From contig NZ_KE387172.1 of assembly GCF_000430625.1 (NCBI RefSeq), forward strand, positions 29,263-86,925: DNA of 57,663 nucleotides, in the 5' to 3' direction. The position numbers and the translations under genes are program-made. Numbering within the stretch: position 1 is the first letter of the stretch; every line of letters starts with the position of its first letter. Under the pieces are notes generated by a model that saw only the letters and a program-made list of their open reading frames with translations, was not told the DNA's origin and made no database searches. This stretch comes from Aneurinibacillus terranovensis DSM 18919 (GTDB taxonomy: Bacteria; Bacillota; Bacilli; Aneurinibacillales; Aneurinibacillaceae). This document shows, piece by piece, positions 302 through 15,309 of the stretch.

Positions 302-394
302 ATGAATCGTAAGAAAGGAAAAGCGGTAACGTACAAAAAGGACGTGCTTTTTAATCTCTACGGTTACCAAAAAAGGAGGGAATTATCGCTGTGA
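302..394 (+). CDS. Possible 30-aa leader ORF overlapping the DUF1641 start
   Basis: An ATG at 302 follows GTTGGAG and opens 30 codons ending in TGA at 392-394, which overlaps the GTG start of the next gene as GTGA. The peptide is basic (starts MNRKKGKAV, ends KRRELSL) and matches no family I know. Such an overlap is typical of translational coupling in this operon. The same bases can also fold: GGTAAC-GTA near 325 pairs with TAC-GGTTACC near 361, and AAAAAG/CTTTTT form an inner hairpin. The segment may therefore be a structured leader rather than a coding gene. Confidence 0.35.
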   Translation: MNRKKGKAVTYKKDVLFNLYGYQKRRELSL

Positions 395-915
395 AAATTG
401 GGGAAGGGTCGGTCGTGGAGGCACCAATTGATCAGTTGCTGATAGAGAAAATTTCTGATCCGCAAACGATCGAGCAACTGGTTCGCCTGCTCGATAAACT
501 GGAGCATATAACGTTTCTGTTCGACATGGTGGAACATTTTATGCGTCGCGGGCCTGAAATAGCTGATTCGATTAACGAGCTCATCGTTATTTTACGACAA
601 AGTTTGTCCAAGCCCGAATACGCAATGCGCTTTGAGCGTGCCCTTACCGCTGTCCAACAAATGCAGGAATTTCTCGATTCCCCTCAAGTCCAGGAACTGT
701 TCAAATCCGATGTTCTCGACGTGCGCTCGGTGCAAATGGTTGGAAAAGTGTCGCGTTCGATGCTCCAGGCCACTGCAGAAACGGCCCGGACGGGGACGAA
801 ACGCGTCGGGCTTATTGGGCTTATGCGGGCATTGAGCGACCCGGAGGTGCAGCCGGCTCTCAATTTTGTTCTTAATTTCGCGCGACATTTATCGAAGGAA
901 CTCGGCGATGCATGA
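391..915 (+). CDS. DUF1641 family protein, first main gene of hydrogenase operon
   Basis: This is a 174-residue, mostly helical soluble protein with a GTG start at 391 behind AAAGGAGGG. The C-terminal half (about residues 95-170: FKSDVLDVRSVQ, GLIGLMRALSDPEVQPALNFVL) matches the DUF1641 family as I know it. Members occur beside formate dehydrogenases (YrhD of Bacillus subtilis) and beside uptake hydrogenases, but no biochemical role is established. Its place directly ahead of hypA and the 8-base overlap with hypA argue for a role in hydrogenase assembly or electron transfer. That role is inference. Confidence 0.85.
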   Translation: MKIGEGSVVEAPIDQLLIEKISDPQTIEQLVRLLDKLEHITFLFDMVEHFMRRGPEIADSINELIVILRQSLSKPEYAMRFERALTAVQQMQEFLDSPQVQELFKSDVLDVRSVQMVGKVSRSMLQATAETARTGTKRVGLIGLMRALSDPEVQPALNFVLNFARHLSKELGDA

Positions 916-1291
916 ATTGTCCATTGCCCACAGTCTGGTTGAATTAGCCGTCGAAGCAGCGGAAAATACGGGGATGAAACGGGTGAAGGCTCTTTACTTA
1001 AAACTCGGTGTCTTGTCGGGTGTGGTAAAAGAATCTTTGGAATTTTCCTTCGATGTGGTCATCGAAGGGACACCTCTTGAAGGGGCGAGGCTAGTGATTG
1101 AGGACGTTCCTGTACAAGTATTCTGTTCTGATTGCCAGGAAGCGCATGTTTTGCCTGAACCGTTTCCTATGCGGTGTCCTGTGTGCGGGACGAGAACAGG
1201 CCAGGTGCTGGAGGGACGCGAGCTGGAACTGTATGCCCTGGAAGGAGGTGAGGAAAATGCAGGAGATGACATTAAATCCCCGGATCGTTGA
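908..1291 (+). CDS. hypA: HypA, nickel-insertion chaperone of [NiFe] hydrogenase
   Basis: The protein has 127 residues and starts MHELSIA, where His2 is the conserved nickel ligand of HypA. The structural zinc site is seen as CSDC (about residue 74) and CPVC (about residue 93). HypA works with HypB to deliver nickel to the large-subunit precursor in the cytoplasm. The start at 908 was chosen over in-frame upstream codons because it gives the family N-terminus; it overlaps the DUF1641 stop by 8 bases. The tail after the zinc site is longer and more acidic than usual and runs into hypB, which begins inside it at 1257. Confidence 0.95.
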   Translation: MHELSIAHSLVELAVEAAENTGMKRVKALYLKLGVLSGVVKESLEFSFDVVIEGTPLEGARLVIEDVPVQVFCSDCQEAHVLPEPFPMRCPVCGTRTGQVLEGRELELYALEGGEENAGDDIKSPDR

Positions 1292-1952
1292 AATCCGCCA
1301 GAACGTTCTTAAGAAAAATGATCTTCTTGCTAGAGAATTGAGGAAGCGTTTTCAAGAAACTGGTGTCTACGTCGTCAACCTGGTTTCGAGTCCGGGAGCA
1401 GGAAAAACGACGCTGCTTACGGATATGTTAACCAGACTTGGGGAACGGCATAGTGTGGCAGCGCTGGTCGGTGATTTAGCCACGGAAAACGACGCGGAAC
1501 GCTTGCGTGAAAGTGGAGCGAAAGTGCGTCAAATTACCACGGGTACAGTTTGTCATCTTGAGGCGAACATGATTGAAAGAACTTTGGCAGAATGGGATTT
1601 GGCAAGTATCGATTTTCTCTTTATCGAAAATGTTGGCAATCTCGTATGCCCTTCGAGTTACGACTTGGGAGAAACCCAGCGTGTTGTTCTCTTTTCTGTG
1701 ACAGAAGGCGAAGACAAGCCAGTGAAATATCCGACCATTGTTAACAGCGCCGATGTGGCAGTTATTACGAAAATCGACTTGGCTGAAGCGGTGGGATTTC
1801 AACGGGAACGCTTCTATGAAGCGCTGAACGAGGTGAGGCCTGGTATTCCTATTCATGAAGTTTCTGTGCGAACGGGAGAAGGGGTCGACGAGTGGATAAC
1901 CCGTTTGGAGGCTGACAAAGCAGCGTTTAAAAAATCGCTCGATTCCCTGTGA
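1257..1952 (+). CDS. hypB: HypB, GTPase for nickel insertion
   Basis: This 231-residue protein is a SIMIBI-class GTPase. The P-loop SSPGAGKTT lies at about residues 43-51, followed by the HypB signatures VGDLATENDA, TGTVCHLEA and ENVGNLVCP; the Cys and His in these motifs form the metal site at the dimer interface. The N-terminus is short and lacks the histidine-rich nickel store of some HypB proteins. The start at 1257 has GGAGGTGAGG just upstream and overlaps hypA by 35 bases. An earlier in-frame start would only add sequence antisense in character to HypA. With HypA it loads nickel into the large subunit. Confidence 0.95.
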   Translation: MQEMTLNPRIVEIRQNVLKKNDLLARELRKRFQETGVYVVNLVSSPGAGKTTLLTDMLTRLGERHSVAALVGDLATENDAERLRESGAKVRQITTGTVCHLEANMIERTLAEWDLASIDFLFIENVGNLVCPSSYDLGETQRVVLFSVTEGEDKPVKYPTIVNSADVAVITKIDLAEAVGFQRERFYEALNEVRPGIPIHEVSVRTGEGVDEWITRLEADKAAFKKSLDSL

Positions 1953-2011
1953 TCGATCGTCAAATCGCTCGACGATTTGCTAAAAAAACTCGCTCTTTGG
2001 AGGTGGGAGAA

Positions 2012-2983
2012 GTGGCGAATCTTCTTTGGGTGCACGGCGGTGCGTGCAATGGAAACACCCAATCGTTTTTAAATGCTGAAGAACCGACAGTAATTGATTT
2101 GGTCACTGATTTCGGTATTAATATTCTGTATCATCATTCTTTGTCGATGGAATTCGGCGATCAAGTGCGTCGTTTGTACGATCAGATCCTGAGTGACGAA
2201 ATCCCTTTGGACATACTCGTGGTGGAAGGGACGGTTATTCAGGGGCCGAATGGAACCGGACACTACGACATGCTCATGGATCGTCCTAAAAAAGATTGGA
2301 TTTTGGAATTCTCCCATAAAGCCCAGTACGTTGTCGCTATCGGCGACTGTGCATGCTGGGGAGGGATTCCGGCGACGAAGCCGAATCCGTCTGAATCGAT
2401 TGGTCTTCAATACTTGAAAGGGGAACGGGGCGGATTTCTCGGAGCCGAGTTCCGTTCGAAGGCAGGACTGCCCGTTATTAATATTCCCGGTTGCCCGGCT
2501 CATCCTGACTGGGTGACACAAATTCTTGTTGCCGTTGCTACCGGTCGCGCGGAAGATGTCCTTTTAGATGATTTACAGCGGCCGCAAACGTTCTTTAAGA
2601 CGTTCACCCAAACCGGCTGTACACGTGTGCAATATTTTGAGTGGAAAGAACCTGTGGAAGAGTTCGGACAAGGCACCCGGAAAGGTTGTTTGTTCTACGA
2701 ACAAGGTTGCCGTGGCCCGATGACCCATTCACCATGCAACCGTATTCTCTGGAACCGTCAATCTTCAAAAACCCGGGCAGGGATGCCCTGTATCGGTTGT
2801 ACGGAGCCTCAGTTCCCGTTCTTCGACTTGGCACCCGGTACGGTGTTCAAGACACAAAAAATTCTTGGCTCGATTCCGAAGGAAGTGCCACAAGGCAGCG
2901 ATCCGTTAAGCTATTCCATTAATGCGGCAATGGCCCGGGCGGTGGCACCGAAGTGGGCGAAAGAAGATATGTTTGTGCCATAA
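2012..2983 (+). CDS. [NiFe]-hydrogenase small subunit, group 2a-like
   Basis: The small subunit carries the iron-sulfur chain that takes electrons from the active site. Cysteine motifs for the proximal cluster (GGACNGNT, DCACWGG, PGCPAHPDW) and the two outer clusters (GCTRVQ, GCLFYEQGCRGP, HSPCN, MPCIGCTEP) are visible. There is no Tat signal and no C-terminal membrane helix, so it is cytoplasmic or on the inner membrane face. The opening LLWVHGGACNGNTQSFLNAEEP is shortened here in meaning: it is the pattern of group 2a HupS/HucS proteins. I chose GTG at 2012 because GGAGGTGGGAG precedes it and it matches the family start; GTG at 1949, overlapping the hypB stop, would add 21 residues and lacks a ribosome site. 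Confidence 0.93.
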   Translation: MANLLWVHGGACNGNTQSFLNAEEPTVIDLVTDFGINILYHHSLSMEFGDQVRRLYDQILSDEIPLDILVVEGTVIQGPNGTGHYDMLMDRPKKDWILEFSHKAQYVVAIGDCACWGGIPATKPNPSESIGLQYLKGERGGFLGAEFRSKAGLPVINIPGCPAHPDWVTQILVAVATGRAEDVLLDDLQRPQTFFKTFTQTGCTRVQYFEWKEPVEEFGQGTRKGCLFYEQGCRGPMTHSPCNRILWNRQSSKTRAGMPCIGCTEPQFPFFDLAPGTVFKTQKILGSIPKEVPQGSDPLSYSINAAMARAVAPKWAKEDMFVP

Positions 2984-3059
2984 GCATAAATGATTAAAAA
3001 TGCTCTGCCCTACATGTCTCTTTTTAGGGAAAACCATTCTAAAGGTGGGGTGTAACAGT

Positions 3060-4697
3060 ATGAGTAAGCAAGGAACAAAAACAGTAATAAAAAGCAATAA
3101 AACGGAAATCAAAGTCCACTCGCTAGGGCGTGTAGAAGGCGATTTGGATGTTAAAGTGACGATTGAAAATGGAGTTGTTGTTGATGCCTGGACGGAAGCC
3201 ACGATGTTCCGCGGCTTCGAGATGATTTTAAAGGGAAAAGATCCGCAGGCCGGTCTGATTGTTACCCCCCGGATTTGCGGCATTTGCGGCGGCAGCCATT
3301 TAACCAAGGCGGTTTATGCATTGGATACGGCATGGAACACCCAGGTGCCGCCTAACGCTACGCTTATTCGTAACATTGCCCAGGCAGCCGAAACGATCCA
3401 GAGCATTCCTCGCTGGTTTTATGCCCTGTTCGCTATCGGGCTTACTCATAAGAACTATGCTTCCTCCAAATTGTATGAGGAAGTGGTTCGTCGCTGGGCG
3501 CCATTTGAAGGCGAACACTATGAGATTGGCGTTACCGTTTCGGCCAAACCGGTGGAAATTTATGCAATCTTCGGTGGCCAGTGGCCTCATTCGAGTTTCA
3601 TGATTCCCGGGGGCGTAATGAGTGCACCGACGCTGTCCGACATTACCCGCTCTATCTCGATTCTGGAATATTATCGCGATAGCTGGTTGGAGAAAATCCT
3701 CCTCGGTTCGTCCGTTGAACGGTGGCTCGAAAACAAAACATGGTCGGACGTCCTTGCATGGCTTGATGAAAAACCGGAACACCGTGATTCCGATCTCGGG
3801 CTCTTCATCCGCTACAGTATGGAGATTGGCATGGACAAATACGGTGCGGGTCCGGGAAGTTATCTTGCGACAGGAAACTTCTTCCATGAAGAGAAATATC
3901 GCTATCCTACCATTGAAGGGCGCAATGCTGCGTTGATTGCCCGCTCCGGCATATTTGACGGGAAGGAATATCACGATTTTGATCAAGCCCGCATACGCGA
4001 AGATCACACGTATTCCTTCTATCGCGGTAGCGGTTCTTACCATCCGTTTGAGGGAATAACCGAGCCTATTGATCCGATAGAAGGCCAAAAGGAAGGAAAA
4101 TATACGTTTGCAAAGGCACCCCGATATGACATTCCGGGGATGGGGGAGACTCCGTTAGAGGTAGGACCGCTGGCTCGCCAAGTGATGGCCGGCCGGCCGA
4201 ATGCGGAAGAGTGGCAGGATTATGATCCTCTCTTCTTAAATATTATTAATGAAATCGGTCCGAGTTCAATGGTACGGGTGCTGGCACGTTTGCACGAAGC
4301 GGCGAAGTACTATTTGCGCATGCGGAAATGGCTGCAGCAGATTGATTTGAATGAGAAATTTTATATCAAGCCAAACGAATTGCCTAAGGGGCGCGGTTTC
4401 GGGGCTACGGAAGCAGCTCGCGGCGCTTTGGCCGATTGGATTGAAATTAAAGACGGAAAGATTGAAAACTATCAAGTCGTAACGCCGACGGCCTGGAACA
4501 TTGGTCCGCGGGATCGTCATGGACAGCGGGGTCCGATTGAGACGGCGATGATTGGCCTGCCCGTCAAAAATTCGCAGGATCCGGTCGAACTGGCCCATAT
4601 CGCACAAAGTTACGATTCTTGTCTCGTCTGTACTGTTCATGCTTACGATGCCAAAACGAACAAAGAGTTAGCCAAGTATGAGGTTATGAAGATGTAA
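3060..4697 (+). CDS. [NiFe]-hydrogenase large (catalytic) subunit, group 2a-like
   Basis: This 545-residue precursor holds the Ni-Fe active site. The N-terminal ligand motif RICGICGG lies at about residues 70-77, and the C-terminal motif DSCLVCTVH near residue 522. As in this family, cleavage after that His would remove the last 17 or so residues (AYDAKT to the end), which is the job of the protease encoded next. The N-terminus reads LGRVEGDLDVKV, another family hallmark. ATG 3060 has AAAGGTGGGG upstream; an in-frame ATG at 3000 would add 20 unrelated residues. With the small subunit it should oxidise H2. The group assignment rests on motif memory, not on a tree. Confidence 0.93.
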   Translation: MSKQGTKTVIKSNKTEIKVHSLGRVEGDLDVKVTIENGVVVDAWTEATMFRGFEMILKGKDPQAGLIVTPRICGICGGSHLTKAVYALDTAWNTQVPPNATLIRNIAQAAETIQSIPRWFYALFAIGLTHKNYASSKLYEEVVRRWAPFEGEHYEIGVTVSAKPVEIYAIFGGQWPHSSFMIPGGVMSAPTLSDITRSISILEYYRDSWLEKILLGSSVERWLENKTWSDVLAWLDEKPEHRDSDLGLFIRYSMEIGMDKYGAGPGSYLATGNFFHEEKYRYPTIEGRNAALIARSGIFDGKEYHDFDQARIREDHTYSFYRGSGSYHPFEGITEPIDPIEGQKEGKYTFAKAPRYDIPGMGETPLEVGPLARQVMAGRPNAEEWQDYDPLFLNIINEIGPSSMVRVLARLHEAAKYYLRMRKWLQQIDLNEKFYIKPNELPKGRGFGATEAARGALADWIEIKDGKIENYQVVTPTAWNIGPRDRHGQRGPIETAMIGLPVKNSQDPVELAHIAQSYDSCLVCTVHAYDAKTNKELAKYEVMKM

Positions 4698-4724
4698 TTT
4701 ACGCTGGTAGAAGGAGGAATTCGT

Positions 4725-5192
4725 ATGACCGTCATTATTGGATGCGGCAATTTGCTCCGCAGTGACGACGGGGTGGGTCCGATGCTCATCCGCAAATTGT
4801 GGGAGCTGGGGGTTCCGCCTGAAGTCCGCCTGGCTGATGGTGGAACCGCCGGAATGGATGTGACTTTTCAAATCGGGGATGCTGAGGAACTGATTCTCGT
4901 GGATGCCTGTCAATCGGGGGCAGCGCCAGGCACGATTTTTCAACTTCCTGGAGAAGAGGTAGAAACGCCTCCTCTAAAAGATGTCAACCTCCACGATTTT
5001 CGGTGGGAAAATGCCATTGCCATGGGCCGTTGGCTGCTCAAAAGCCGCTTTCCAAAAAAAGTGACGGTCTTCCTCATCGAAGCTGAAAACCTGTCGTACG
5101 GGTTTGGCCTGTCTTCTACGGTGGAAGAAGCTTTAGATCGTTTGGCGAACGAGTTGCTTCAGCGCGTGGGAGGGAAAGTAAGTGAAGTTTGA
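4725..5192 (+). CDS. Hydrogenase maturation endopeptidase (HyaD/HupD/HycI family)
   Basis: A 155-residue protein beginning TVIIGCGNLLRSDDGVG, the classic start of the hydrogenase maturation proteases. The nickel-sensing acidic residues are visible as Asp in SDDG (about residue 15) and Asp in LVDAC (about residue 65), with His in NLHDF (about residue 92). It removes the C-terminal peptide of the large subunit once nickel is in place, which closes the active site. The ribosome site AGAAGGAGG is strong. Its position right after the large-subunit gene fits. The last codons overlap the next gene by 11 bases. Confidence 0.93.
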   Translation: MTVIIGCGNLLRSDDGVGPMLIRKLWELGVPPEVRLADGGTAGMDVTFQIGDAEELILVDACQSGAAPGTIFQLPGEEVETPPLKDVNLHDFRWENAIAMGRWLLKSRFPKKVTVFLIEAENLSYGFGLSSTVEEALDRLANELLQRVGGKVSEV

Positions 5193-5478
5193 AATTACTT
5201 CAACGGGTTATCTTCATATCCCCGCCGAAGAAGCGATGAGGTTCCGTACGGGAACCGCCATCGCTTTAATACGTGGTGAAGAACTGTGGATTATGCCGGT
5301 GAGCCATCCAGGGGCAGGAGGATTATTGTTAAAATTACGCAATTCCCGCGGGGATCGAAGCATGTTGGTCGAAGAGTTTCTGCCTGAAGGTGTGCCACCA
5401 GGGGAGCGCAGTGCTGTATGGGATGATCAGCTCGGAGCACTTCGCATCCCCCTTTTCTGTTCAAGTACTTCGGCGTAG
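5182..5478 (+). CDS. Unknown 98-aa protein of hydrogenase operon
   Basis: GTG at 5182 overlaps the protease gene by 11 bases and follows GGAGGG. The product looks like a small beta-rich protein: ITSTGYLHIPAEEA, ALIRGEELWIMPV, GLLLKLRNSRGDRSMLVEEFLP. It has no signal peptide, no membrane helix and one Cys close to the end. I do not recognise a named domain with certainty. Tight overlap with the protease and codon use like its neighbours show it belongs to the operon. It may be an assembly factor or electron-chain component; that is only inference from place. Confidence 0.75.
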   Translation: MKFEITSTGYLHIPAEEAMRFRTGTAIALIRGEELWIMPVSHPGAGGLLLKLRNSRGDRSMLVEEFLPEGVPPGERSAVWDDQLGALRIPLFCSSTSA

Positions 5479-5528
5479 TTGTAATCATAATTTTTTGGCT
5501 TTTCGATGAGAAAAAAGGGGGGAGAATT

Positions 5529-6740
5529 GTGCTGCAGACGCAACCGCTCGGTGTTTTTCCCGGAGCTGCAAGTTTTTTTCTTTTACCGTCTGCTCCAGAA
5601 GGAAATAATGTATTGCCGCTTCTTCTCCGCGGCTATCTTCCCGACATATGGTCGGAGAGTTGGCGTTTTTTTGTTGCGGCAATTCAAGGGGAAAGTGAAG
5701 ATGTGGTTGTAAGCTTATTGCCGCAAGGGCCGGAAGGGATTTACAACCGATTTATTCTTGAGCCGGAAGAACACATATATGCCTGGGCCAGAGAATTGCT
5801 TGAAGGGGATATGGCCCTGCTCTTAGATGCGGTGGCATGGCGTCTTGGCTTGCGCGAAACACCCCCGCCGTATGCTGATGCCGCCGGAGAAGTACGGGCG
5901 TTTCTGTTGGCTACCCAGGCGTACGAGGCACTTCACCGGAACGATTGGCCGACTGGGCTTGCGATTCTTTTGGAGGCAGCGAAAACGGTCCGGGAGATTT
6001 CCCCTGTTTTTTCTGCCCGACTCTACGCCGAATGGGCGGCGACAAAACAGATGCTTGGCGAGCACGGGCAGGAAACAGTAGGGGGGTATCGCTGCGCCCT
6101 GGCTCTTCTGGAGACGTCTTCCTTTCAGGAAGCCCGGGCAGAGCTGTGGTTTCAATTGGGCACAGCCTATCAAACCGGTTCAGAGGGACGGAAGGACTCC
6201 CTTTTGGAAGCGGTCAGGTGCTATCATGAAGTGTTGAAAGTGTATCGTAAAGACACTCATCCTGATGGTTATGCGATGGTTCATATGAATTTAGCGCTCG
6301 CGTATATTGCCATGCCGTCTTCGGATCGCGGCGCCCATTTGCGCGCTGCGACGGCCATTCAATCACTGCGGGAGGCTCTGCATATTTTTAAAAAAGACAC
6401 CCATGTTGAGTATTGGACGAGTGCTACAATTAATCTTGCCAATGCCTTACAGCATGTGAAAACATCCCATCCGGAAGAAAACCTCTGGGAAGCTGTAGCG
6501 CTTTATGAAGACGCGCTGAGTGTACGACGCCCTGAGGATGATCCGCTGGGTTATGCCCGCGTCCTTGCGAATCAGGGAAATGCCCTTGCCCATCTCGGTG
6601 CATTTTCCCGGGCGGTACCTCGGTTAGAAGAGGCGAGCCGACTGTTTCGAACATACGGGGAAAATGATGCGGCCGATTCCGTCAAGTACATATTGGCTGA
6701 AATTTCGATAAAGCAGAAGGAAGCGGCATCCTTTTGTTAA
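5529..6740 (+). CDS. TPR-repeat protein of hydrogenase operon
   Basis: A 403-residue protein with GTG start at 5529 behind a purine-rich GGGGGGAG site. Residues 1-90 have no repeat I know; the rest is a chain of helix pairs. Repeats are visible as AEWAATKQMLGEHGQETVGGYRCALALL, then AELWFQLGTAYQTG, AMVHMNLALAYIAM, ATINLANALQHV and ARVLANQGNALAHLGAFSRAV, each with the small-residue pattern of tetratricopeptide motifs. TPR proteins bind other proteins, so a scaffold or assembly role for the hydrogenase is likely but not shown. TPR genes also occur in the mycobacterial Huc locus. The stop codon TAA overlaps the next start as TAATG. Confidence 0.82.
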   Translation: MLQTQPLGVFPGAASFFLLPSAPEGNNVLPLLLRGYLPDIWSESWRFFVAAIQGESEDVVVSLLPQGPEGIYNRFILEPEEHIYAWARELLEGDMALLLDAVAWRLGLRETPPPYADAAGEVRAFLLATQAYEALHRNDWPTGLAILLEAAKTVREISPVFSARLYAEWAATKQMLGEHGQETVGGYRCALALLETSSFQEARAELWFQLGTAYQTGSEGRKDSLLEAVRCYHEVLKVYRKDTHPDGYAMVHMNLALAYIAMPSSDRGAHLRAATAIQSLREALHIFKKDTHVEYWTSATINLANALQHVKTSHPEENLWEAVALYEDALSVRRPEDDPLGYARVLANQGNALAHLGAFSRAVPRLEEASRLFRTYGENDAADSVKYILAEISIKQKEAASFC

Positions 6741-7078
6741 TGATGGCCGTTGAGCGCTTTAGTGAGCGCATCATCCAGCGCAACGAAGGGGCACAAAACG
6801 CGCTGCATCGGCTTCGCGCGAATCCCCAGGGAGAAGGCGTGTGGTTGAATGAATTTGCGGATGCATTTTTTCGGGATGCTCTCCTTGATAACTCTGCCGG
6901 TTCGTGCTTGATTCTACAAGCTCTGGCTAATCAGCGCATAAACGACTCTTCTCGTATTTTTGTACCTGTTACCGTTGGGGAGGCGCTGCAGGAGCTGGCG
7001 AAGCAAAGCTTCGCCACTTTGTTACAGAATAAAACGGAAGAAGCGCTTGAGCAGACCTTGGCTTTTGGAGGGGATTGA
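6740..7078 (+). CDS. Unknown 112-aa helical protein of hydrogenase operon
   Basis: The ATG at 6740 shares its A with the stop of the TPR gene (TAATG), and the TGA at 7076-7078 overlaps the next start, so translation is coupled on both sides. The product is helical and soluble, starting with MMAVERFSERIIQRNEGAQNA when read from the second codon of a double start, and has one Cys (GSCLILQAL). I do not recognise the family. Place and coupling suggest it partners the TPR or NifU/Rieske protein. Confidence 0.72.
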   Translation: MMAVERFSERIIQRNEGAQNALHRLRANPQGEGVWLNEFADAFFRDALLDNSAGSCLILQALANQRINDSSRIFVPVTVGEALQELAKQSFATLLQNKTEEALEQTLAFGGD

Positions 7079-7929
7079 TGATGAAAGTTATGCAGGAGGA
7101 TTTTAATGCGTTGGCGGAACGCGTAGATCGGGAGCTGTCCTCGATTAAGGAACTGCCGGAGGATGCATGCAGGAAGGCAATGGAGTTGAAAAAGGCCATC
7201 GAAGCGTTTCATGAACATGGTCTCAGAAAGCTCGTCCGTACGTTCCGTGAAACAGATGCGGGGAAAGAATTGTTGCTTAAGGCGGTGGAAGACCCTGCCG
7301 TCTACGCCATGCTCTTCATGCATGGGATCATTAAACAGGACCTGTTTACCCGTGTTGCAGCGGTGCTAGAAGAAGTGCGTCCGTACATGCGCTCTCACGG
7401 CGGCGATGTGGAGCTGGTGAAAGTCGAAGGAGAGACTGTGTATGTCCGCCTTCAAGGTGCCTGTTCCGGATGTTCTATGTCCGCTGTGACGTTGAAAAAC
7501 GGGGTTGAGGAAGCGATCAAAGCGCGTGTCCCGGAAATCGAATATGTCATCATGGCGGGAGATGAAGTGGCTTCCGGCTACCTGCCCATTCATGCGATTG
7601 ATGATGCGGAAAGCCTCGAACAAAGTGGCTGGAAGCAGGGACCTTCCATCTCGGAACTTGAAGAAGGACGACCGGTTCACTTTGCCCACGAGGAGTGGGA
7701 TGTTTTGTTGGTGCGTATAGAGGGAAAAGTGATGGCTTTTCGCAATCAGTGTCCCCATATGAGTATGCCTCTCGACAAAGGACTCGTCGACGGTTCTGCT
7801 ATTACTTGTCCGTGGCACGGTTTCCGTTTCGACTTATCAACCGGAGAGTGCATCACGGCGCCTCACGTGCAGCTCGAACCGTTTCCGGTACGCGTAGAGG
7901 ACCAGCGGGTATGGATACGATTAAGCTAA
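7078..7929 (+). CDS. NifU C-domain / Rieske [2Fe-2S] fusion protein (HucE-like)
   Basis: A 283-residue protein with three parts. Residues 1-95 are helical and unassigned. Residues about 95-165 form a NifU C-terminal domain with CSGCSMS, a site that can hold an Fe-S cluster. Residues about 180-283 form a Rieske domain with CPHMS and CPWHGF, the Cys-His/Cys-His ligand pairs of a [2Fe-2S] cluster. No signal or membrane helix is seen, so it is cytoplasmic. A Rieske/NifU-type iron-sulfur protein is part of the mycobacterial Huc hydrogenase locus, which supports a role as electron acceptor of this enzyme. ATG at 7078 or 7081 follows TTGGAGGGG and overlaps the preceding stop. Confidence 0.85.
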   Translation: MMKVMQEDFNALAERVDRELSSIKELPEDACRKAMELKKAIEAFHEHGLRKLVRTFRETDAGKELLLKAVEDPAVYAMLFMHGIIKQDLFTRVAAVLEEVRPYMRSHGGDVELVKVEGETVYVRLQGACSGCSMSAVTLKNGVEEAIKARVPEIEYVIMAGDEVASGYLPIHAIDDAESLEQSGWKQGPSISELEEGRPVHFAHEEWDVLLVRIEGKVMAFRNQCPHMSMPLDKGLVDGSAITCPWHGFRFDLSTGECITAPHVQLEPFPVRVEDQRVWIRLS

Positions 7930-7945
7930 TCGCTTATCCTCTTGA

Positions 7946-7975
7946 TTGACACAAACTTTTACTTTTCATTACAAC
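7946..7975 (+). promoter_or_regulatory. Possible internal promoter ahead of hypC
   Basis: The 67-base gap before hypC, the first true gap of this size in the maturation part of the operon, contains TTGACA (7946-7951) and TACAAC (7970-7975) at 18-base spacing. The -35 is perfect, the -10 matches four of six. It could give extra transcription of hypCDEF. No start site evidence exists. Confidence 0.3.
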
Positions 7976-7996
7976 ATTTAAGGAGGAAACGCGTCC

Positions 7997-8281
7997 ATGT
8001 GCTTAGCTATTCCAGGACAAATTGTGGAGCTTCTCGACGGTGATCACCATTACGCTATGGTTGACGTTTCCGGCGTGCGCCGGAAAATCAACATCGGCCT
8101 GCTGAAAAATGAAGGAACCCGGCTTGGCGATTGGGTGCTCCTCCATGTCGGATTTGCCATGAGCAAGATTAGCGAAGAACAGGCGGTTGAGCAGCTGAGA
8201 TTGCTCAGCATGCTAGGTGAATCGGACGAGGCCATACAGGAAGTAATGGGGTATCAATTTGATGAAGAGAAAAAAACGTGA
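7997..8281 (+). CDS. hypC: HypC, Fe(CN)2CO assembly chaperone
   Basis: The 94-residue protein begins MCLAIPGQIVEL; Cys2, exposed after removal of Met1, is the ligand that carries the iron precursor in HypC/HybG proteins. The OB-like fold sequence VDVSGVRRKINIGLL and LLHVGFAMSKISEEQA follow the family. It passes the Fe(CN)2CO unit between HypD and the large-subunit precursor. AAGGAGGA is 10 bases upstream. The slightly extended acidic tail (from about residue 75) is not unusual. Confidence 0.95.
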   Translation: MCLAIPGQIVELLDGDHHYAMVDVSGVRRKINIGLLKNEGTRLGDWVLLHVGFAMSKISEEQAVEQLRLLSMLGESDEAIQEVMGYQFDEEKKT

Positions 8282-8307
8282 AGAAAATGAGCATTGGAGG
8301 TGTGATT

Positions 8308-9426
8308 ATGACGATGAAATACGTTGACGAGTTTCGCGACCCGGAATTAATCCGCAGGACATCGGAAGAGATCCATCGTCTTGTCGATCCTGATTATCAT
8401 TATCGTTTCATGGAAGTTTGTGGCGGGCATACGTTTTCGATCTTTCGATTTGGGTTGCAGCATCTGCTGCCAGCAAACATCGAACTCGTTCATGGACCGG
8501 GATGTCCGGTTTGCGTTCTTCCCATGGGGCGGATGGACGACGGTTTATCCATTGCCCGGCAGCCGAATGTGATTTTCACCGCTTTCGGTGATGTGATGCG
8601 GGTTCCCGGTTCACAGGGAACTCCCTTAGAACTCCGGGCCAGAGGAACCGACATCCGTATGATTTACTCTCCCCTGGACGCTTTAAAGATTGCCATGGAT
8701 CATCCAGAACAGCAAGTGGTGCTGTTCGCCATCGGCTTTGAAACGACGGCCCCGTCGACGGCGCTGACGCTCATGCGCGCCCGCGAGTTAAACGTGCCCA
8801 ATTTTTACGTGTTTTCCAATCATGTTATGATTTTGCCGGCGATTCGCACGATCCTGGATTCTCCGGATATGCGCATCGACGGGTTTATAGGACCAGGGCA
8901 TGTCTCGACGGTGATCGGCGCCCATCCTTATGAACTTGTCACGGAACATTATGGAAAACCTGTGGTGATCTCAGGTTTTGAGCCGCTCGATTTACTCCAA
9001 TCGATCCTTATGCTGGTCAAACAAATGAAGGAAGGCCGTGCGCAAGTGGAAAACCAGTACAGCCGTGTAGTTCCATGGGAAGGAAACATCCCTGCGCTGG
9101 AAGTGATGAACGAAGTTTTTGAAGTCCGTCCTTTCTTCGAGTGGAGGGGACTTGGGGTCATCTCCCAATCGGCGCTGAAACTGCGGCCCGAATTCGCCCG
9201 GTGGGATGCGGAAGTCCGCTTCCAGATGGAAGGTGTTCGCGTCACCGATCCGAAAGCGGCGCAATGTGGTGAAGTATTAAAAGGGGTGCTTAAACCGCAT
9301 CAATGCAAATGGTTTGGGAAAGAATGCACACCTGAACATCCTATAGGTGCCCTCATGGTGTCATCGGAAGGGGCGTGCGCCGCATATTACCATCACGTCC
9401 ACATGCGTCAGGCAATCGGCGAATAG
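8308..9426 (+). CDS. hypD: HypD, scaffold for Fe(CN)2CO synthesis
   Basis: HypD (372 residues) is the iron-sulfur scaffold on which the cyanide ligands are attached to iron. Visible signatures are MEVCGGHT (about residue 36), GPGCPVCVLP (about residue 65), FAIGFETTAP and the C-terminal cysteines around QCKWFGKEC, which bind the [4Fe-4S] cluster. ATG 8308 was chosen because GGAGGT lies 6 bases upstream; a GTG at 8278 in frame would overlap hypC and has no ribosome site of its own. It follows hypC directly and the two proteins form a complex. Confidence 0.95.
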   Translation: MTMKYVDEFRDPELIRRTSEEIHRLVDPDYHYRFMEVCGGHTFSIFRFGLQHLLPANIELVHGPGCPVCVLPMGRMDDGLSIARQPNVIFTAFGDVMRVPGSQGTPLELRARGTDIRMIYSPLDALKIAMDHPEQQVVLFAIGFETTAPSTALTLMRARELNVPNFYVFSNHVMILPAIRTILDSPDMRIDGFIGPGHVSTVIGAHPYELVTEHYGKPVVISGFEPLDLLQSILMLVKQMKEGRAQVENQYSRVVPWEGNIPALEVMNEVFEVRPFFEWRGLGVISQSALKLRPEFARWDAEVRFQMEGVRVTDPKAAQCGEVLKGVLKPHQCKWFGKECTPEHPIGALMVSSEGACAAYYHHVHMRQAIGE

Positions 9427-9445
9427 CTCAGGGAGGAAAAAAGAT

Positions 9446-10480
9446 ATGAAGACTACCAAGATGAGTTTTACTGATGCCCATATTGAGTTGGCCCATGGAG
9501 CCGGTGGGAAAGCCAGCCGACGACTCATCGAGGGGCTATTGGTTCCTTACTTGATGAACGACACGTTGCCGGAGTTGAACGATGCGGCACACATCGATGC
9601 TGATGGACGGCGTTTGGCTATTACGGCAGACAGCTATGTTGTCAAGCCGCTCGTCTTTCCGGGCGGGTCCATCGGCGAACTTGCCATAAATGGGACGGTT
9701 AACGATTTGGCCATGGGCGGAGCAAAGCCATTGGCGCTGGTGACCACGTTCATATTAGAAGCGGGCCTTTCGACATCTGAGCTGGAACGGGAAGTGGCGG
9801 CCATGGCCAGGGCGGCACAGTGTGCCGGGGTGTCCGTGGTGGGGGGCGATACGAAGGTGGTGGAACACGGTAAAGCAGACGGGCTGTTCATCACCACTGC
9901 AGGTATTGGTCTTACTGATCAGCGCGTATTCCTTTCGGCCGAACACGTTCGACCCGGCGATCAGGTAATTCTTTCCGGTCCGATCGGAGATCACGGGATC
10001 ACCGTCCTCCTGGCCAGGGGGGAATTGGATTTGGAAGCCGATCTCACCTCAGATACGCGCCCGCTATGGCCATTCGTTGCTAACCTCATCGACGCTGCGG
10101 CGCCAGGGCTGCGCTGGTTACGCGACCCGACGCGGGGCGGCGTGGCTACGGCGTTAAACGAATTGGCAAGAGACGCCAAAGTCGCCGTAGTGCTGGACGA
10201 GGAGGCGATTCCGGTACGTCCGGCGGTGCGGGGTACTTGTGAAATTTTAGGCCTGGATCCTCTTCACATTGCCAACGAAGGGCAGTTTCTCGCCATCGTT
10301 TCCCCGGAATACGCCGATATGGCGTTAGAAGCGATCCGGGGCATACCGGGCGGAGAGGACGCGCGGCGCATCGGCGAAATTCAAGAAGATCCGAAAAAAG
10401 TCGTCCTGGCGCGTTCCCGCTACGGAGGTACGCGGGTCATTGATATGCTTGTAGGCGATCCGCTGCCGCGTATTTGTTAA
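9446..10480 (+). CDS. hypE: HypE, carbamoyl dehydratase (CN ligand synthesis)
   Basis: This 344-residue PurM/AIRS-like ATPase ends in PRIC, the invariant C-terminal Cys that accepts the carbamoyl group from HypF and is dehydrated to thiocyanate. The ATP-binding parts are seen as LAHGAGGKASRRLI near the start, TADSYVVKPLVFPGG, NDLAMGGAKPLAL and VVGGDTKVVEHG. The ATG at 9446 follows GGGAGGAAAA; upstream in-frame starts lie inside hypD. Length and ends match the family. Confidence 0.95.
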   Translation: MKTTKMSFTDAHIELAHGAGGKASRRLIEGLLVPYLMNDTLPELNDAAHIDADGRRLAITADSYVVKPLVFPGGSIGELAINGTVNDLAMGGAKPLALVTTFILEAGLSTSELEREVAAMARAAQCAGVSVVGGDTKVVEHGKADGLFITTAGIGLTDQRVFLSAEHVRPGDQVILSGPIGDHGITVLLARGELDLEADLTSDTRPLWPFVANLIDAAAPGLRWLRDPTRGGVATALNELARDAKVAVVLDEEAIPVRPAVRGTCEILGLDPLHIANEGQFLAIVSPEYADMALEAIRGIPGGEDARRIGEIQEDPKKVVLARSRYGGTRVIDMLVGDPLPRIC

Positions 10481-10567
10481 ATGGTCGCTCCGGCTGCCTT
10501 GCGCGCATCGGGGAAGCGCGGCCGTCTGTTTCATCATCCGTAAGGACGGGAGGTGCTGAAACGAACC

Positions 10568-10819
10568 ATGCGTACACTTTATGGCACAAAAGGATGCCCT
10601 TACACGAAGGAGATGCGGGAATCTTTATTATGGGATGGAGAAGAGTTTACCGAATATGATGTGGAAGAAGACGAAGAAGCGTTAAAACAGCTCATCGCTT
10701 TGACGGGCGGACGCACCGTCCCTGTCCTGGTTGAAGACGACCGTGTCGTTCAAGTCGGGTTTTGCGGCCGCGGATGCATTGTCAAGCTGCCTTCTTCCAT
10801 GGAAGATACATCTTTGTAA
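10568..10819 (+). CDS. Small glutaredoxin-like (UXX-star type) thiol protein
   Basis: A thioredoxin-fold protein of 83 residues with the redox site GCPYTKEM at about residues 9-16 and the cis-Pro motif TVPVLVED near residue 53. The C-terminus has GFCGRGC. It resembles the short UXX-star glutaredoxin-like family that often sits in hyp or metal-cofactor loci. A role in keeping Hyp cysteines reduced is plausible but not shown. The start is uncertain: ATG 10568 gives the best fold start and lies 13 bases after GGGAGGTG; GTG 10553 would add five residues. Confidence 0.75.
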   Translation: MRTLYGTKGCPYTKEMRESLLWDGEEFTEYDVEEDEEALKQLIALTGGRTVPVLVEDDRVVQVGFCGRGCIVKLPSSMEDTSL

Positions 10820-10837
10820 AAAGGTAGGTGGTTTATC

Positions 10838-13087
10838 ATGCATATCGCACAGCTCATTCGCGTTCACGGCGTTGTTCAGGGGATCGGTTTTCGCCCCTTT
10901 ATCTTTCGCCTGGCGAAACGGTGGGAGCTTAGCGGCTGGGTGTGCAACGGGGAAAGCGGCGTGGAGATACATGTGGAAGGGGATGCCTCCGCCATTCAGA
11001 CGTTTATCGAGGAAGTCACGACACATCCTCCTGCGCTGGCCCGGGTGACCGATCTGGAAATCGAAGATGTGGCCGTGCAGGGGCTTCACGATTTTCGAAT
11101 CCGTGAAAGCAAGCGGAACGATCGGCCGACGGTGCACATCCCTGCCGATCAGGCCGTGTGTTCGGCTTGTTTGACCGAACTGTTTCATCCTGCAAACCGC
11201 CGCTATCTGTATCCTTACATCAATTGCACGGAGTGCGGCCCCCGCTACACCGTGATACAACGCCTGCCGTATGACCGTCCCTATACGACGATGAAATCGT
11301 GGCCCATGTGCCCGGCCTGTTCTGCAGAGTATTATGAGCCGACCGACCGCAGGTTCCACGCGCAGCCGACTGCCTGCCCCGAGTGCGGGCCTTATTATCA
11401 CATGCGATGGCAAGGCGAAGAGATAAATGGAGATGGCAAAGTCATCGAAAAGACCGCCCAGCTTCTTCGTGCAGGGCGCATCGTGGCGATCAAAGGACTT
11501 GGCGGATATCATCTGGCATGCGATGCGGAAAACGCTCAGGCGGTGTGGACACTCAGAGATCGGAAGCGTCGCAGGGCGAAACCGTTTGCCCTGATGGTCA
11601 AAGACGTGGAGACCGCGCGGATGCTTATTAAGCTATCACCGGAAGAAGAGGCGCTTCTTACGTCTGCGGCTCGTCCTATTGTGCTTGCCCGCTCACACCG
11701 CTCGCTTCCGGGCGTGGCACCTGATAACACCGATTGCGGCGTGATGCTCCCGTATACACCGCTCCATCATTTGCTGTTTCATTTCGGTGCGCCGCCTGTG
11801 CTTGTAATGACGAGCGCCAATCGCTCCGGTGAACCCATTATCTATAAAGATGAAGACGCTGTGGAAGGGCTTGAAGGACTTGTCGACGCCTGGCTTATCG
11901 GTGAGCGGCCCATCGCCCGCCGCGTCGACGATTCCGTCGTCCGCGTGAGCGAATTTGGGTCCACTGTACTCCGCCGGGCGAGGGGATACGCTCCGCTTCC
12001 TGTCACTCAATTGCCCGGCGATCGGCCCATTCTTGCTGTCGGCTCTGACCTGAAAAATACTGTCACGTTAGTCGTTAAGGGTCAGGCGATCGTAAGCCAG
12101 CATGTGGGAGATTTGACGCAGTACGAGGCGTATGCGGCATTTGAGCAGACCATCTACGATCTTTTGTCGATGTATGATGTCCCGCTGGCAGACACGATCG
12201 TGGCGCATGATCTCCATCCCGATCATCGTTCCGCCCAGTTTGCGCGCGGGCTGGAAAACTGCGAGTACGTTGGCATCCAGCATCACCGCGCCCATGTGGC
12301 ATCCGTGCTGGCGGAACGAAATGCTCTGGACAAACGGGTGATCGGAGTGGCATTTGATGGGACGGGATTTGGCGATGATGGGGCCATCTGGGGCGGGGAA
12401 CTGTTTGTCGGAAGCGTCGCAGAAGGATTGGAACGGCATGGGCACCTTCGCTATGCCGTGCTTCCGGGCGGTGATGCGGCGGCACGTATACCGCTTCAGG
12501 CGCTGGCCGGTTTCTTTGTCGACGTGCCCGAATTGGCGACGGACGTCGGCAGGCGGCTTGCGCTTCCAGAACGGTTTTTCACGACGGTAAAACTCGTGGA
12601 AAAAAGACTCCGCACCTTCCCCACAACGTCCGTTGGCCGATTATTCGATGCCGCAGCCGCCCTTTTAGGATTCACCGAATCCATTTCGTTTGAAGGCCAG
12701 GCAGCTATATGGCTCGAACATCTCGCTCGCTCTGTCTCTTTGGAGAAGGTGTATCCTTTTCCGTGGGATGAAAAGGAACTTGACTATCGTCCCCTCTTGC
12801 AGGCGCTGGCGGAAGATCGTTTGAATGGGCGGGACGCGGCGTCGATTGCCCGTTCGTTTCATAGGAGCATCGCTGAAGGCGTATTTCGAAGCGCCCTCGC
12901 TTTAGGAGAAGCCCACGGGATCGATACGGTTGTATTATCCGGCGGTGTATTTCAAAATTCTCTTTTGCTAGCCGATCTGAAGGAGTTGTTCACTGAAAGG
13001 GCCATGCATGTATGGATAGGTGAGAGGGTCCCCCCAAACGACGGTGGCATCAGCCTCGGACAGGCGGCGCTGGTGGCGGCGACGTAG
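10838..13087 (+). CDS. hypF: HypF, carbamoyltransferase for CN ligand synthesis
   Basis: HypF (749 residues) turns carbamoyl phosphate and ATP into carbamoyl-adenylate and hands the group to HypE. Domain order is complete. An acylphosphatase domain (1-92) has VHGVVQGIGFRPF. A double zinc finger (about 108-190) has CSAC, CTEC, CPAC and CPEC. A YrdC-like domain (about 200-390) has KGLGGYHLACDA and VMTSANRSGEPI. The Kae1-like C-terminal domain (about 400-749) has HDLHPDH, QHHRAH and GVAFDGTGFGDDG. It closes the operon; the stop is followed by about 400 bases with no gene. Confidence 0.96.
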   Translation: MHIAQLIRVHGVVQGIGFRPFIFRLAKRWELSGWVCNGESGVEIHVEGDASAIQTFIEEVTTHPPALARVTDLEIEDVAVQGLHDFRIRESKRNDRPTVHIPADQAVCSACLTELFHPANRRYLYPYINCTECGPRYTVIQRLPYDRPYTTMKSWPMCPACSAEYYEPTDRRFHAQPTACPECGPYYHMRWQGEEINGDGKVIEKTAQLLRAGRIVAIKGLGGYHLACDAENAQAVWTLRDRKRRRAKPFALMVKDVETARMLIKLSPEEEALLTSAARPIVLARSHRSLPGVAPDNTDCGVMLPYTPLHHLLFHFGAPPVLVMTSANRSGEPIIYKDEDAVEGLEGLVDAWLIGERPIARRVDDSVVRVSEFGSTVLRRARGYAPLPVTQLPGDRPILAVGSDLKNTVTLVVKGQAIVSQHVGDLTQYEAYAAFEQTIYDLLSMYDVPLADTIVAHDLHPDHRSAQFARGLENCEYVGIQHHRAHVASVLAERNALDKRVIGVAFDGTGFGDDGAIWGGELFVGSVAEGLERHGHLRYAVLPGGDAAARIPLQALAGFFVDVPELATDVGRRLALPERFFTTVKLVEKRLRTFPTTSVGRLFDAAAALLGFTESISFEGQAAIWLEHLARSVSLEKVYPFPWDEKELDYRPLLQALAEDRLNGRDAASIARSFHRSIAEGVFRSALALGEAHGIDTVVLSGGVFQNSLLLADLKELFTERAMHVWIGERVPPNDGGISLGQAALVAAT

Positions 13088-13500
13088 AGCGCCCATGAGA
13101 TGATAGTCCGCTTTTGCGTAGCTGTTGATCACCTGTGGACACGTATACCAGGCATTGTAGAAGCAATGGCACATGCGTCTTCAATAAAGCAGAAGGATTC
13201 TGTTTTCACGATTTGCTGAAGAACAGGCTTCGAGAGTAGAGAGGCAGCCGATGTTGTTGTAAAAAATTGCGTATGGGTTCGTGTTTTGGTACTATAGGGG
13301 TATAAGACATGTCTTTTCCTCCTCTGGTAAGATTGGTTGTGGTGACATATCTATACCATAGGAAAAGGAAGATGTCTCTTTTTTTATCTGGAAGAAAAAT
13401 GGGAGCGAATTTACTCATTTATAGTATAATTAAAAGATTTGCAAAATTTTCGTTTAAATATTAGCAAAAGATCAATGTGGCAACGATTCCTCTGAATTTA
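13088..13500. other. Non-coding stretch after hypF
   Basis: I find no credible gene in these 413 bases; short frames on both strands lack ribosome sites and family likeness. The only structure is the terminator-like foldback at 13,305-13,386. GC content falls sharply compared with hypF, marking the end of the hydrogenase block. Confidence 0.6.
13305..13386 (+). terminator. Long-loop terminator-like hairpin after hydrogenase operon
   Basis: AGACAT...CTTTTCC at 13,305-13,319 can pair with GGAAAAGG...ATGTCT ending at 13,377, followed by CTTTTTTT. The stem is bulged and the loop is about 45 bases, unusually long for an intrinsic terminator. It may be the operon terminator or part of a larger regulated leader. 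Confidence 0.4.
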
Positions 13501-13525
13501 GATCCAGCTTAAGCTGGATCTTTTT
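13501..13525 (+). terminator. Rho-independent terminator
   Basis: GATCCAGCTTAAGCTGGATC is a perfect 20-base palindrome followed by TTTTT. It ends any transcription coming from the left and stands directly before the decayed tautomerase gene. Confidence 0.75.
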
Positions 13526-13550
13526 ACATAAATAGAGCTATTAGTTCTTA

Positions 13551-13727
13551 ATCAAGGAGGAATTAATCGAAAAAATGTCTCACTTGGTAGCAGAAACGTT
13601 ACAATCCCCTATTCAAAGCGTTCGAGTGCTCATCCACGAAATGCCAATATAGCATTGGGGGATTGCCGGGGAATCTGTAAAGACAATAAGAGGCCGTACA
13701 AGTATAGAAGAAAGGGGAGATAAATAA
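13551..13727 (+). pseudogene. 4-oxalocrotonate tautomerase pseudogene
   Basis: Reading codons from 13,551 gives IKEELIEKMSHLVAETLQ, then SVRVLIHEMPI, a TAG at 13,650-13,652, then HWGIAGESVKTIRGR in the same frame up to TAA at 13,725. This is the 4-oxalocrotonate tautomerase pattern (KEELIEKMT..VAETLG, SVRVLI.EMP, WGIGG). The N-terminus with the catalytic Pro1 is missing and the residue before HW is an amber codon, so no active enzyme is expected. In catechol meta-cleavage the enzyme isomerises 2-hydroxymuconate. The stop TAA overlaps the ATG of the monooxygenase gene, a relic of operon coupling. Confidence 0.75.
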
Positions 13728-13909
13728 TGTCAGCAGAACCTGCTTTAGAACCTGCCTTCCAAAAAAAGCTCAGGGAGCAACCCTGCGATTGGCAGACAAA
13801 GAATGAATATGAAGAAGTTACGCTTAGACAGCAACCTTATCTGCATGGACAGTACCGCAATATCCATGATGAGAGAGACTATACATCTATGATCCTCGTT
13901 ATACGAGAG

Positions 13910-14536
13910 TGAACTACCCGCCACCTCCGCTTCGCTTAGAGGTGGGGGCTTCTAAGATGATCGTACCTAACGGTACGAAATTGACTTAGCTATCGAGCCT
14001 GTTCCATGCTCTATCTATGATTAGGCTAACAGTCGCAATCCTTCGTTTTTGATATTGATAGAAGCGTTCCAATCCCTGTCTGCAACAAAACCGCATTGAC
14101 AGGGGAATGTGCGCTCAGAAAGGGATAGGGATTCTTTCACTCGACCGCAACATGAGCAAGTCTTGGACGATGGAAACCACTTATCTATTTTGATAAGCTT
14201 TTTTCCCTGCTCCTCTAACTTGTATTGGAGAAATGTCGTAAACATGCCCCAGGCATTATCTGCAACACTTTTGTCAAAGTTGAGGGCTTGTGACATTCCT
14301 TACATGTTGAGGTCTTCGACAACCGCGCAGTCATACCGTTTCGCTAATTTGTGCGATTCCTTATGTAGAAAGTCTTTTCGTTGGTTCGCAATCCTTTTAT
14401 TTATCTAAGACTGATTATATCACAGCATAAGAGAAGGAACAATGTTAGGCTGCGCCTAACCGAAATTCATCTCCCGCTTTCACTGCTGCTGTCGCACCTT
14501 CACGTTTAGAAGTGGGAGACTTCTTTCGGAAGAATG
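13910..14536 (-). mobile_element. IS200/IS605-family relic (tnpB-only, internally deleted)
   Basis: A 627-bp insertion with hairpin ends rather than inverted repeats. On the minus strand the left end begins at 14,536 and has the pair CTCCC...GGGAG (14,466-14,514); the right end has CCCCCACCT...AGGTGGCGGG (13,917-13,950) and finishes GTAGTTCA. Inside is the C-terminal part of a TnpB. Removing exactly these bases rejoins CGA GAG with TTA AAA AGC and restores the monooxygenase frame, which fixes both borders. The flank 5' of the left end reads TTTTTAA, fitting a TTTAA-like target motif. No TnpA gene is present, so it cannot move on its own. Confidence 0.85.
14021..14406 (-). pseudogene. TnpB (IS605 OrfB) C-terminal remnant
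   Basis: On the minus strand the frame reads KRIANQRKDFLHKESHKLAKRYD and VVEDLNM, then a TAA, then GMSQALNFDKSVADNAWGMF on to the end. The Glu in VVEDLN is the RuvC-II residue and the Asp in DRDWNAS the RuvC-III residue. The zinc finger is intact (CSCCG and CQCG). The N-terminal half with the RuvC-I Asp is lost and the ochre codon splits the rest. Only the last 91 residues form an open frame from ATG 14,296. Confidence 0.85.
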
Positions 14537-15309
14537 TTAAAAAGCTCGGATTGGGAAGGATTCCGTGATCCGAAAAAATTCTGGTATACGACGTATGTGA
14601 GTAATCGGAAAAAGCTTGCGGAAGAAGTGGAAAATGGGTTCGAATATACGAAGGAATTAGAGATTATTGAAAATCTTTCCCCTGAATGGGTGAATGCAAT
14701 GAGAGACTTGTATACCCCACTGCGTCATCTTGAATATGGTGAGAATGTACAAATGCAGCACGTGATTCGCTATGCGATGGGCAGCACAATCGAACAATGT
14801 GCAACGTTCAAGGCGTATGATAAAACCGGGCGGGCCCAGTGGATTTTATTATGGGCCATGAACATGTAGGAACATCACGGTGATTTTCTAAGCTATGGCA
14901 AAGAAATACTGATGCAGGATGCTGCCTATCAGCCACTGCGTAAGTATGTGGAAGAAATCCTCATCACAGAAGACTGGGCCGAAGTGCTGATCGCTGAGAA
15001 CTTGACGCTCGATTATGGGAATTGGCCTGGAGATTATCTCTGGGGATTAATTTTAAGCGATCCAAGAGAAACGCCGGAAGAGACGATGAGCAATGCAGAA
15101 ATTATCGGGGAATGGGTAAACAAGTGGTACCCGAAGGCATACGAAGCGTTTTCTTCCTTGTCTCCGATATTTGAAAAGCATAGCCTCCCCATCGATCTTT
15201 CAGCTTCTCTCAAAAAAATCGAAGAGGAAATTGTGATTCTGACTTTCAAAAAGTACAATGTGACATTTAAAATTCATGAATTGATTTAAATGGGATAAGG
15301 AAGAAGCAA

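Follow-up and report, generated by a model that had tools for sequence, protein, structure and literature searches.

Gene organization of the locus

We analyzed a 57,663-nucleotide stretch of the genome of Aneurinibacillus terranovensis DSM 18919 (contig NZ_KE387172.1, positions 29,263 to 86,925 of the forward strand; this whole stretch is referred to as the window) for a [NiFe]-hydrogenase operon and in particular for the four-gene module at 5182-7929. The module comprises two genes of no named family, here called unkA and unkB, a gene encoding a tetratricopeptide repeat (TPR) protein, and hucE, encoding a fusion of a NifU and a Rieske domain. The genome holding the window belongs to the Bacillota and has a size of 4.25 Mb, with the operon located on its contig C3. 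The operon appears as a run of plus-strand genes from 391 to 13087, which are given below in window coordinates together with the best supporting matches.

391..915, plus strand: HucM, DUF1641 protein of 174 amino acids, predicted membrane-associated stalk/scaffold subunit (DUF1641, E = 2e-11; match to 7uus_Q)
908..1291, plus strand: hypA (open reading frame; named by sequence motif, position and synteny with the Parageobacillus operon)
1248..1952, plus strand: hypB (open reading frame; named by sequence motif, position and synteny with the Parageobacillus operon)
1949..2983, plus strand: hucS, hydrogenase small subunit (top PDB match 7utd_B, E = 7e-162)
3060..4697, plus strand: hucL, group 2a large subunit (7uus_A, E = 1e-244)
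4725..5192, plus strand: hydrogenase maturation endopeptidase of the HyaD/HybD/HycI superfamily (PF01750, E = 1.5e-17; TIGR00072, E = 6.5e-40, over the cut-off)
5182..5478, plus strand: unkA, 98 amino acids, putative free-standing protease-associated domain (fusions elsewhere; AlphaFold2 model)
5529..6740, plus strand: TPR protein, 403 amino acids (TPR_12, E = 5.5e-7, at the cut-off)
about 6740..7078, plus strand: unkB, 112-114 amino acids, all-helical, no named family (start TTG at 6734 or ATG at 6740)
7078..7929, plus strand: hucE, helical N-terminal domain followed by NifU (CSGC) and Rieske (CPH...CPWH) domains (PF01106, E = 1e-28; PF00355, E = 2e-18)
7997..8281, plus strand: hypC (open reading frame; order kept in relatives; named by motif and published synteny)
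8308..9426, plus strand: hypD (open reading frame; conserved order)
9446..10480, plus strand: hypE (open reading frame; conserved order)
10553..10819, plus strand: UXX-star family glutaredoxin, cysteine form (NF041212, E = 1.4e-21, over the cut-off)
10838..13087, plus strand: hypF, last gene of the operon (open reading frame; named by sequence motif and published synteny)

A preliminary description of this DNA had reported four tightly overlapping genes between the protease gene and hypC. All four are present on the plus strand and free of internal stops; regarding the overlap, two of the three internal junctions conform, namely TPR/unkB and unkB/hucE with 1 base each, whereas unkA and the TPR gene are separated by a gap of 50 nucleotides. 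The start of unkA overlaps the end of the protease gene by 11 nucleotides, and hucE is followed by hypC after 67 nucleotides. The TPR/unkB overlap looks like a local trait, because the window lacks about 90 bp that its near relative L026 has at this junction. Dozens of loci contain these genes in an identical order, without any exception; therefore, the four open reading frames are not a product of chance.

Class of the hydrogenase

For both subunits, the best solved relative is the Huc hydrogenase of Mycobacterium smegmatis, the next best matches being at E values of about 1e-35 for HucS and about 1e-65 for HucL. HucL is 66.6% identical to its M. smegmatis counterpart. The alignment of HucL to 7uus_A stops at CTVH; the gene in the window runs 18 residues further, and this tail is absent from the solved chain. 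A C-terminal tail after CTVH is of the type that is cut off by the maturation proteases of [NiFe]-hydrogenases. The operon furthermore contains a hucM gene and, downstream, a gene of the hucE type, both of which are features of group 2a. No Ni/Fe-hydrogenase cytochrome b was detected at the operon on contig C3; the PF01292 matches of this genome are located on contigs C4 and C11, and the cytochrome b above the family cut-off adjoins another hydrogenase on contig C4. The initial view of a group 2a enzyme without cytochrome b in its operon was thus right. Judged by its closest solved relatives, this Bacillota locus holds a complete operon for a [NiFe]-hydrogenase of group 2a (Huc type). It shares with M. 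smegmatis Huc the homologues of HucM, HucS, HucL and HucE as well as the lack of cytochrome b (PMC10017518; PMC6883350), but hucM directly precedes hucS there, whereas it precedes hypAB in the window. In addition, protease and unkA form one protein in the mycobacterial loci examined, and unkB was not found in them.

HucM, the predicted membrane subunit

The preliminary description had stated that no membrane subunit is encoded and had suggested a soluble or scaffolded electron carrier. The first statement has to be withdrawn, as a HucM homologue is encoded at 391-915 in the same operon. A single-sequence search of the PDB gave M. smegmatis HucM (7uus_Q) as the top match (E = 5e-4), and a profile of 10 Bacillota HucM homologues aligned positions 15-165 with positions 25-185 of 7uus_Q (E = 3e-6), which covers almost the full chain. 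This profile also matched the DUF1641 proteins YjlC, 'NDH-2 membrane coupling protein' and ForE1. Furthermore, the Bacillota-only profile picked the open reading frame directly upstream of actinobacterial hucS (E = 1e-5 to 1e-16), that is, at the site where hucM is located in M. smegmatis. For comparison across genomes, 97 loci were fetched mainly via HucL similarity; this set is rich in mycobacteria, and fractions derived from it are not unbiased frequencies. HucM was found in 56 of the 62 loci with enough upstream DNA. By these sequence matches, the DUF1641 gene at 391-915 encodes HucM.

HucM of M. smegmatis serves as a scaffold and as a membrane stalk delivering menaquinone to Huc, and the purified enzyme, consisting of HucS, HucL and HucM only, reduces menaquinone analogues (PMC10017518). 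ForE, the DUF1641 subunit of the Bacillus subtilis formate dehydrogenases, similarly lets a soluble oxidoreductase reduce menaquinone (PMC8808070) and matched the HucM profile with E = 7e-3; however, it belongs to another enzyme, and the stalk formed by M. smegmatis HucM is a tetramer. Of the carrier suggested earlier, the scaffolded coupling to quinone stands, but with a membrane-associated subunit encoded upstream.

In one mycobacterial Huc clade (L084, L089 and L111), which has all other parts of the operon, a HucM match upstream of hucS was not found, and quinone coupling may differ in this clade; for two further members, L097 and L108, the upstream DNA is too short to judge. A second HucM-hypAB-HucSL copy was observed at L029 in genome G034; there, the protease breaks off after its first 35 residues and the module is lacking. 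The same genome harbors a complete huc operon elsewhere.

Co-occurrence and gene order of the module

The preliminary description had named a wide occurrence of the two unknown genes without hydrogenases as evidence against it; co-occurrence instead favored a link to the hydrogenase. HucL was found in 3 of 398 genomes drawn from the Bacillota; unkA was present in the same three and unkB in two of them, and neither gene occurred in any of the 395 HucL-less genomes. Among 61 relatives, unkB was detected exactly in the 9 genomes having a HucL of at least 67% identity, and unkA in 8 of these 9. In genome G026 (L028), a C-terminal match of just 25 residues to unkA was obtained, and the gene was called absent or decayed. 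Distant group 2-like hydrogenases, with 40-46% identity over HucL, are encoded without the unkA-TPR-unkB-HucE module.

The order hucL, protease, unkA, TPR, unkB, hucE is unbroken in the 97 loci, the only deviation being missing members. Within the 83 loci extending at least 4.2 kb 3' of hucL, unkA was present in 68, TPR in 79, unkB in 36 and hucE in 77. On a Mycobacterium intracellulare plasmid, the fused protease-unkA gene is separated from the TPR gene by an additional open reading frame of 85 amino acids (L040, 11498-11755), which has no counterpart in the window.

The operon type is real but known, and its general picture, module included, is already in the literature. In Parageobacillus thermoglucosidasius, the module of Huc operons 2-4 was published as hypothetical, TPR, hypothetical and NifU genes (PMC12976888, Table 1), and for most genes of the operon, an increase of at least a hundred-fold was reported when growth is close to zero (PMC12976888). 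These operons share with the window the succession of DUF1641, hypA, hypB, small subunit, large subunit, protease, module, hypC, hypD, hypE, a glutathione S-transferase/glutaredoxin-type gene and hypF; they differ in an NHL-repeat gene inserted between the NifU gene and hypC, where the window has only the short spacer. A survey across 13 phyla mentioned hucE and hypothetical genes next to hucL (PMC7784904). A more distant case is asr0689-alr0693 of Nostoc sp. PCC 7120, where a TPR gene (alr0691) and a NifU-like gene (alr0692) are located beside hupSL; these genes of the extended hyp operon were proposed to act in small-subunit maturation (PMC2408588; PMC3126725). Their neighbors asr0689 and asr0690 are, by description, predicted small proteins with two transmembrane segments and in this respect unlike unkA and unkB; no strongly hydrophobic segment was found in unkA or unkB of the window.

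unkA as a candidate partner of the maturation protease

The preliminary description had recognized no family for unkA and unkB, and both match nothing in Pfam or NCBIfam. For unkA, 62 homologues scanned singly against Pfam gave no family, and a profile search against PDB sequences gave nothing convincing. In 41 of 75 loci, however, unkA and the protease share one open frame, with unkA placed about 12 to 20 residues past the protease end. Besides Actinomycetota, a Pirellula and an Obscuribacterales genome have such fusions. A profile built from Bacillota unkA sequences only already detects the fused domains (E = 1e-18 to 1e-28); hence, the match is independent of iterated profiles. When fused and free forms were mapped on a HucL tree (a quick tree with the Obscuribacterales row on a long branch), three changes were needed, all of them forced by well-supported branches, as compared to 25 upon shuffling. 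The fusion apparently arose by at least three separate events. Because of this repeated fusion, unkA is most likely a partner domain of the protease. A description of the extra domain of the mycobacterial protease MSMEG_2264 was not found in our literature search.

An AlphaFold2 model of unkA showed a confident beta-rich barrel (predicted local distance difference test, pLDDT, 91.6); the best conserved stretch of the protein is a GGLLLKxRNxxGDR loop. The alignments used for structure models left out the rows from the plasmid collection. By VIA-align, the barrel comes nearest to MraZ, with Z scores of 8.1-8.8 (86-88 residues aligned at 3.2-3.9 Å, the best score being reached over 88 residues at 3.9 Å); these stand apart from the following rows, but Foldseek gave no significant match and a sequence match was not found. 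The similarity to B3 domains is weaker (Z about 4.5).

unkB and the TPR protein

Neither single-sequence nor profile searches of the PDB with unkB gave a convincing match, and 39 homologues scanned singly against Pfam yielded no family. The AlphaFold2 model is helical (pLDDT 92.3); comparison by Foldseek and VIA-align produced nothing above Z 3.0, which does not by itself prove a new fold. A relationship of unkB to HucM or to the N-terminal part of HucE was rejected (hhalign probability <1%). Wherever unkB was found, it sits between TPR and hucE, and it was lost in several lineages, e.g. mycobacteria and Sulfobacillus. Judging from its position, we would guess that unkB helps TPR and HucE. At locus L086, the TPR and HucE matches are located in one open frame (12707-14887), which may reflect a fusion of TPR with HucE or else a frameshift.

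HucE, a NifU-Rieske protein

The fusion of NifU and Rieske domains reported earlier is real, and the cluster motifs of both domains are intact in the window. Several other loci retain a HucE that lacks ligands: the second Rieske Cys/His pair is lost in L031 and L047, the protein of L056 stops before the Rieske domain, L060 has no NifU CxxC, and L071 and L116 contain neither the NifU CxxC nor the Rieske ligands; HucE of L069 is cut by a contig end. In M. smegmatis, the gene is known by the name hucE, and genetic tests showed that it is needed for Huc activity (PMC6883350). Its deletion also abolishes activity staining with the artificial acceptor nitroblue tetrazolium (NBT) (PMC6883350). The proposal that HucE is the likely electron acceptor is disfavored by these observations. 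Loss of ligands, loss of NBT staining in the hucE mutant and the absence of HucE from the purified three-subunit enzyme together favor a role in assembly over that of an obligatory electron carrier.

Neighboring genes and distribution of the operon

The glutaredoxin gene at 10553-10819 between hypE and hypF was observed in six loci of the set; apart from the window, five Bacillota loci and a Sulfobacillus plasmid carry it. The operon (391-13087) has about 96% DNA identity to that of L026, which comes from a genome of another genus of the same family; one congener and most tested members of the family are devoid of the operon. Recent transfer or repeated loss are possible explanations of this distribution. 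Just past the operon end, at 14021-14296 on the minus strand, a fragment was noticed which resembles, as judged by eye, the C-terminal zinc ribbon of a TnpB/OrfB-type protein.

Proposed role of the module

We consider it probable that the window encodes a complete Huc operon with a HucM stalk and that the module at 5182-7929 is a dedicated Huc assembly kit, acting by a maturation mechanism that we infer as follows. By homology to M. smegmatis Huc, HucS-HucL would be carried on the HucM stalk, and menaquinone would reach the enzyme through this stalk, so that no cytochrome b or soluble carrier would be needed. The unkA barrel probably helps the protease to recognize HucL and to time the cutting of its 18-residue C-terminal tail. 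TPR, unkB and HucE would act on the small subunit: the NifU domain of HucE, in most species together with the Rieske cluster, would assemble the iron-sulfur clusters of HucS or hand them over, and the apo-subunits would be held by TPR and unkB. A bolder version, in which unkA is an undescribed protease accessory domain timing HucL clipping and unkB-TPR-HucE constitute a Huc-specific assembly line for HucS with its unusual [3Fe-4S] clusters, run in some lineages on a ligand-free HucE, is tentative and rather doubtful.

Several points weigh against an assembly kit. unkB is missing in many loci which look functional and, because of this, it is not strictly essential. Both cluster motifs are kept in 75 of the 82 HucE hits, and a redox role is possible in most species. 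The MraZ-like fold of unkA is weak by Foldseek (E at least 0.09; best MraZ match E = 0.16) and rests on the VIA-align Z scores. Fusion indicates joint action of unkA and the protease and does not specify the step; the exact step is one that we infer. Membrane attachment of HucM in A. terranovensis is predicted by homology only, and experiments on unkA, unkB or TPR were not found in the literature.

Alternatively, HucE might be the physiological electron acceptor passing electrons to menaquinone, with unkA, TPR and unkB scaffolding the transfer. This idea was also raised by others, who reported a suitable potential of the Rieske cluster and a decrease of H2 uptake upon deletion of hucE as large as that caused by deletion of a hydrogenase subunit (PMC6883350), and the general retention of the cluster motifs would agree with it. 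The purified enzyme, however, is devoid of HucE, yet reduces menaquinone analogues, the hucE mutant fails to stain with NBT as well, and HucE persists in the six loci where ligands or domains are lost; we therefore regard an acceptor function as unlikely. HucE could also have two separate jobs, the NifU domain maturing HucS and the Rieske domain protecting or re-reducing clusters under oxygen. The domains are indeed separable, and one lineage each of Bacillota and Chloroflexota has lost just the Rieske half, but Rieske-less forms are limited to few lineages and oxygen protection is purely putative, so that such a division of labor seems improbable.

For unkA, the modelled similarity to the DNA-binding barrels of MraZ (Z up to 8.8) and B3 proteins could suggest an MraZ/AbrB-like regulator of the operon instead of a protease partner. 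A common fold does not prove DNA binding, though; repeated fusion to a maturation protease suits protein maturation better, and the GGLLLKxRNxxGDR loop being the best conserved stretch also speaks against a regulator, which we judge very unlikely. The assembly kit, with unkA as partner of the protease, is thus the explanation we prefer.

What may be new is the link between protease and unkA, the definition of two protein families tied to the hydrogenase, and the occurrence of HucE without cluster ligands; no earlier description of them was found in a search outside of which most subscription journals lay. Huc enzymes use up the trace H2 of air and are wanted as oxygen-tolerant catalysts. Their production is held back by a poor grasp of maturation (PMC10657181). 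With unkA as the probable protease partner and HucE, TPR and unkB as putative assembly factors, the module would provide a short list of candidates for co-expression.

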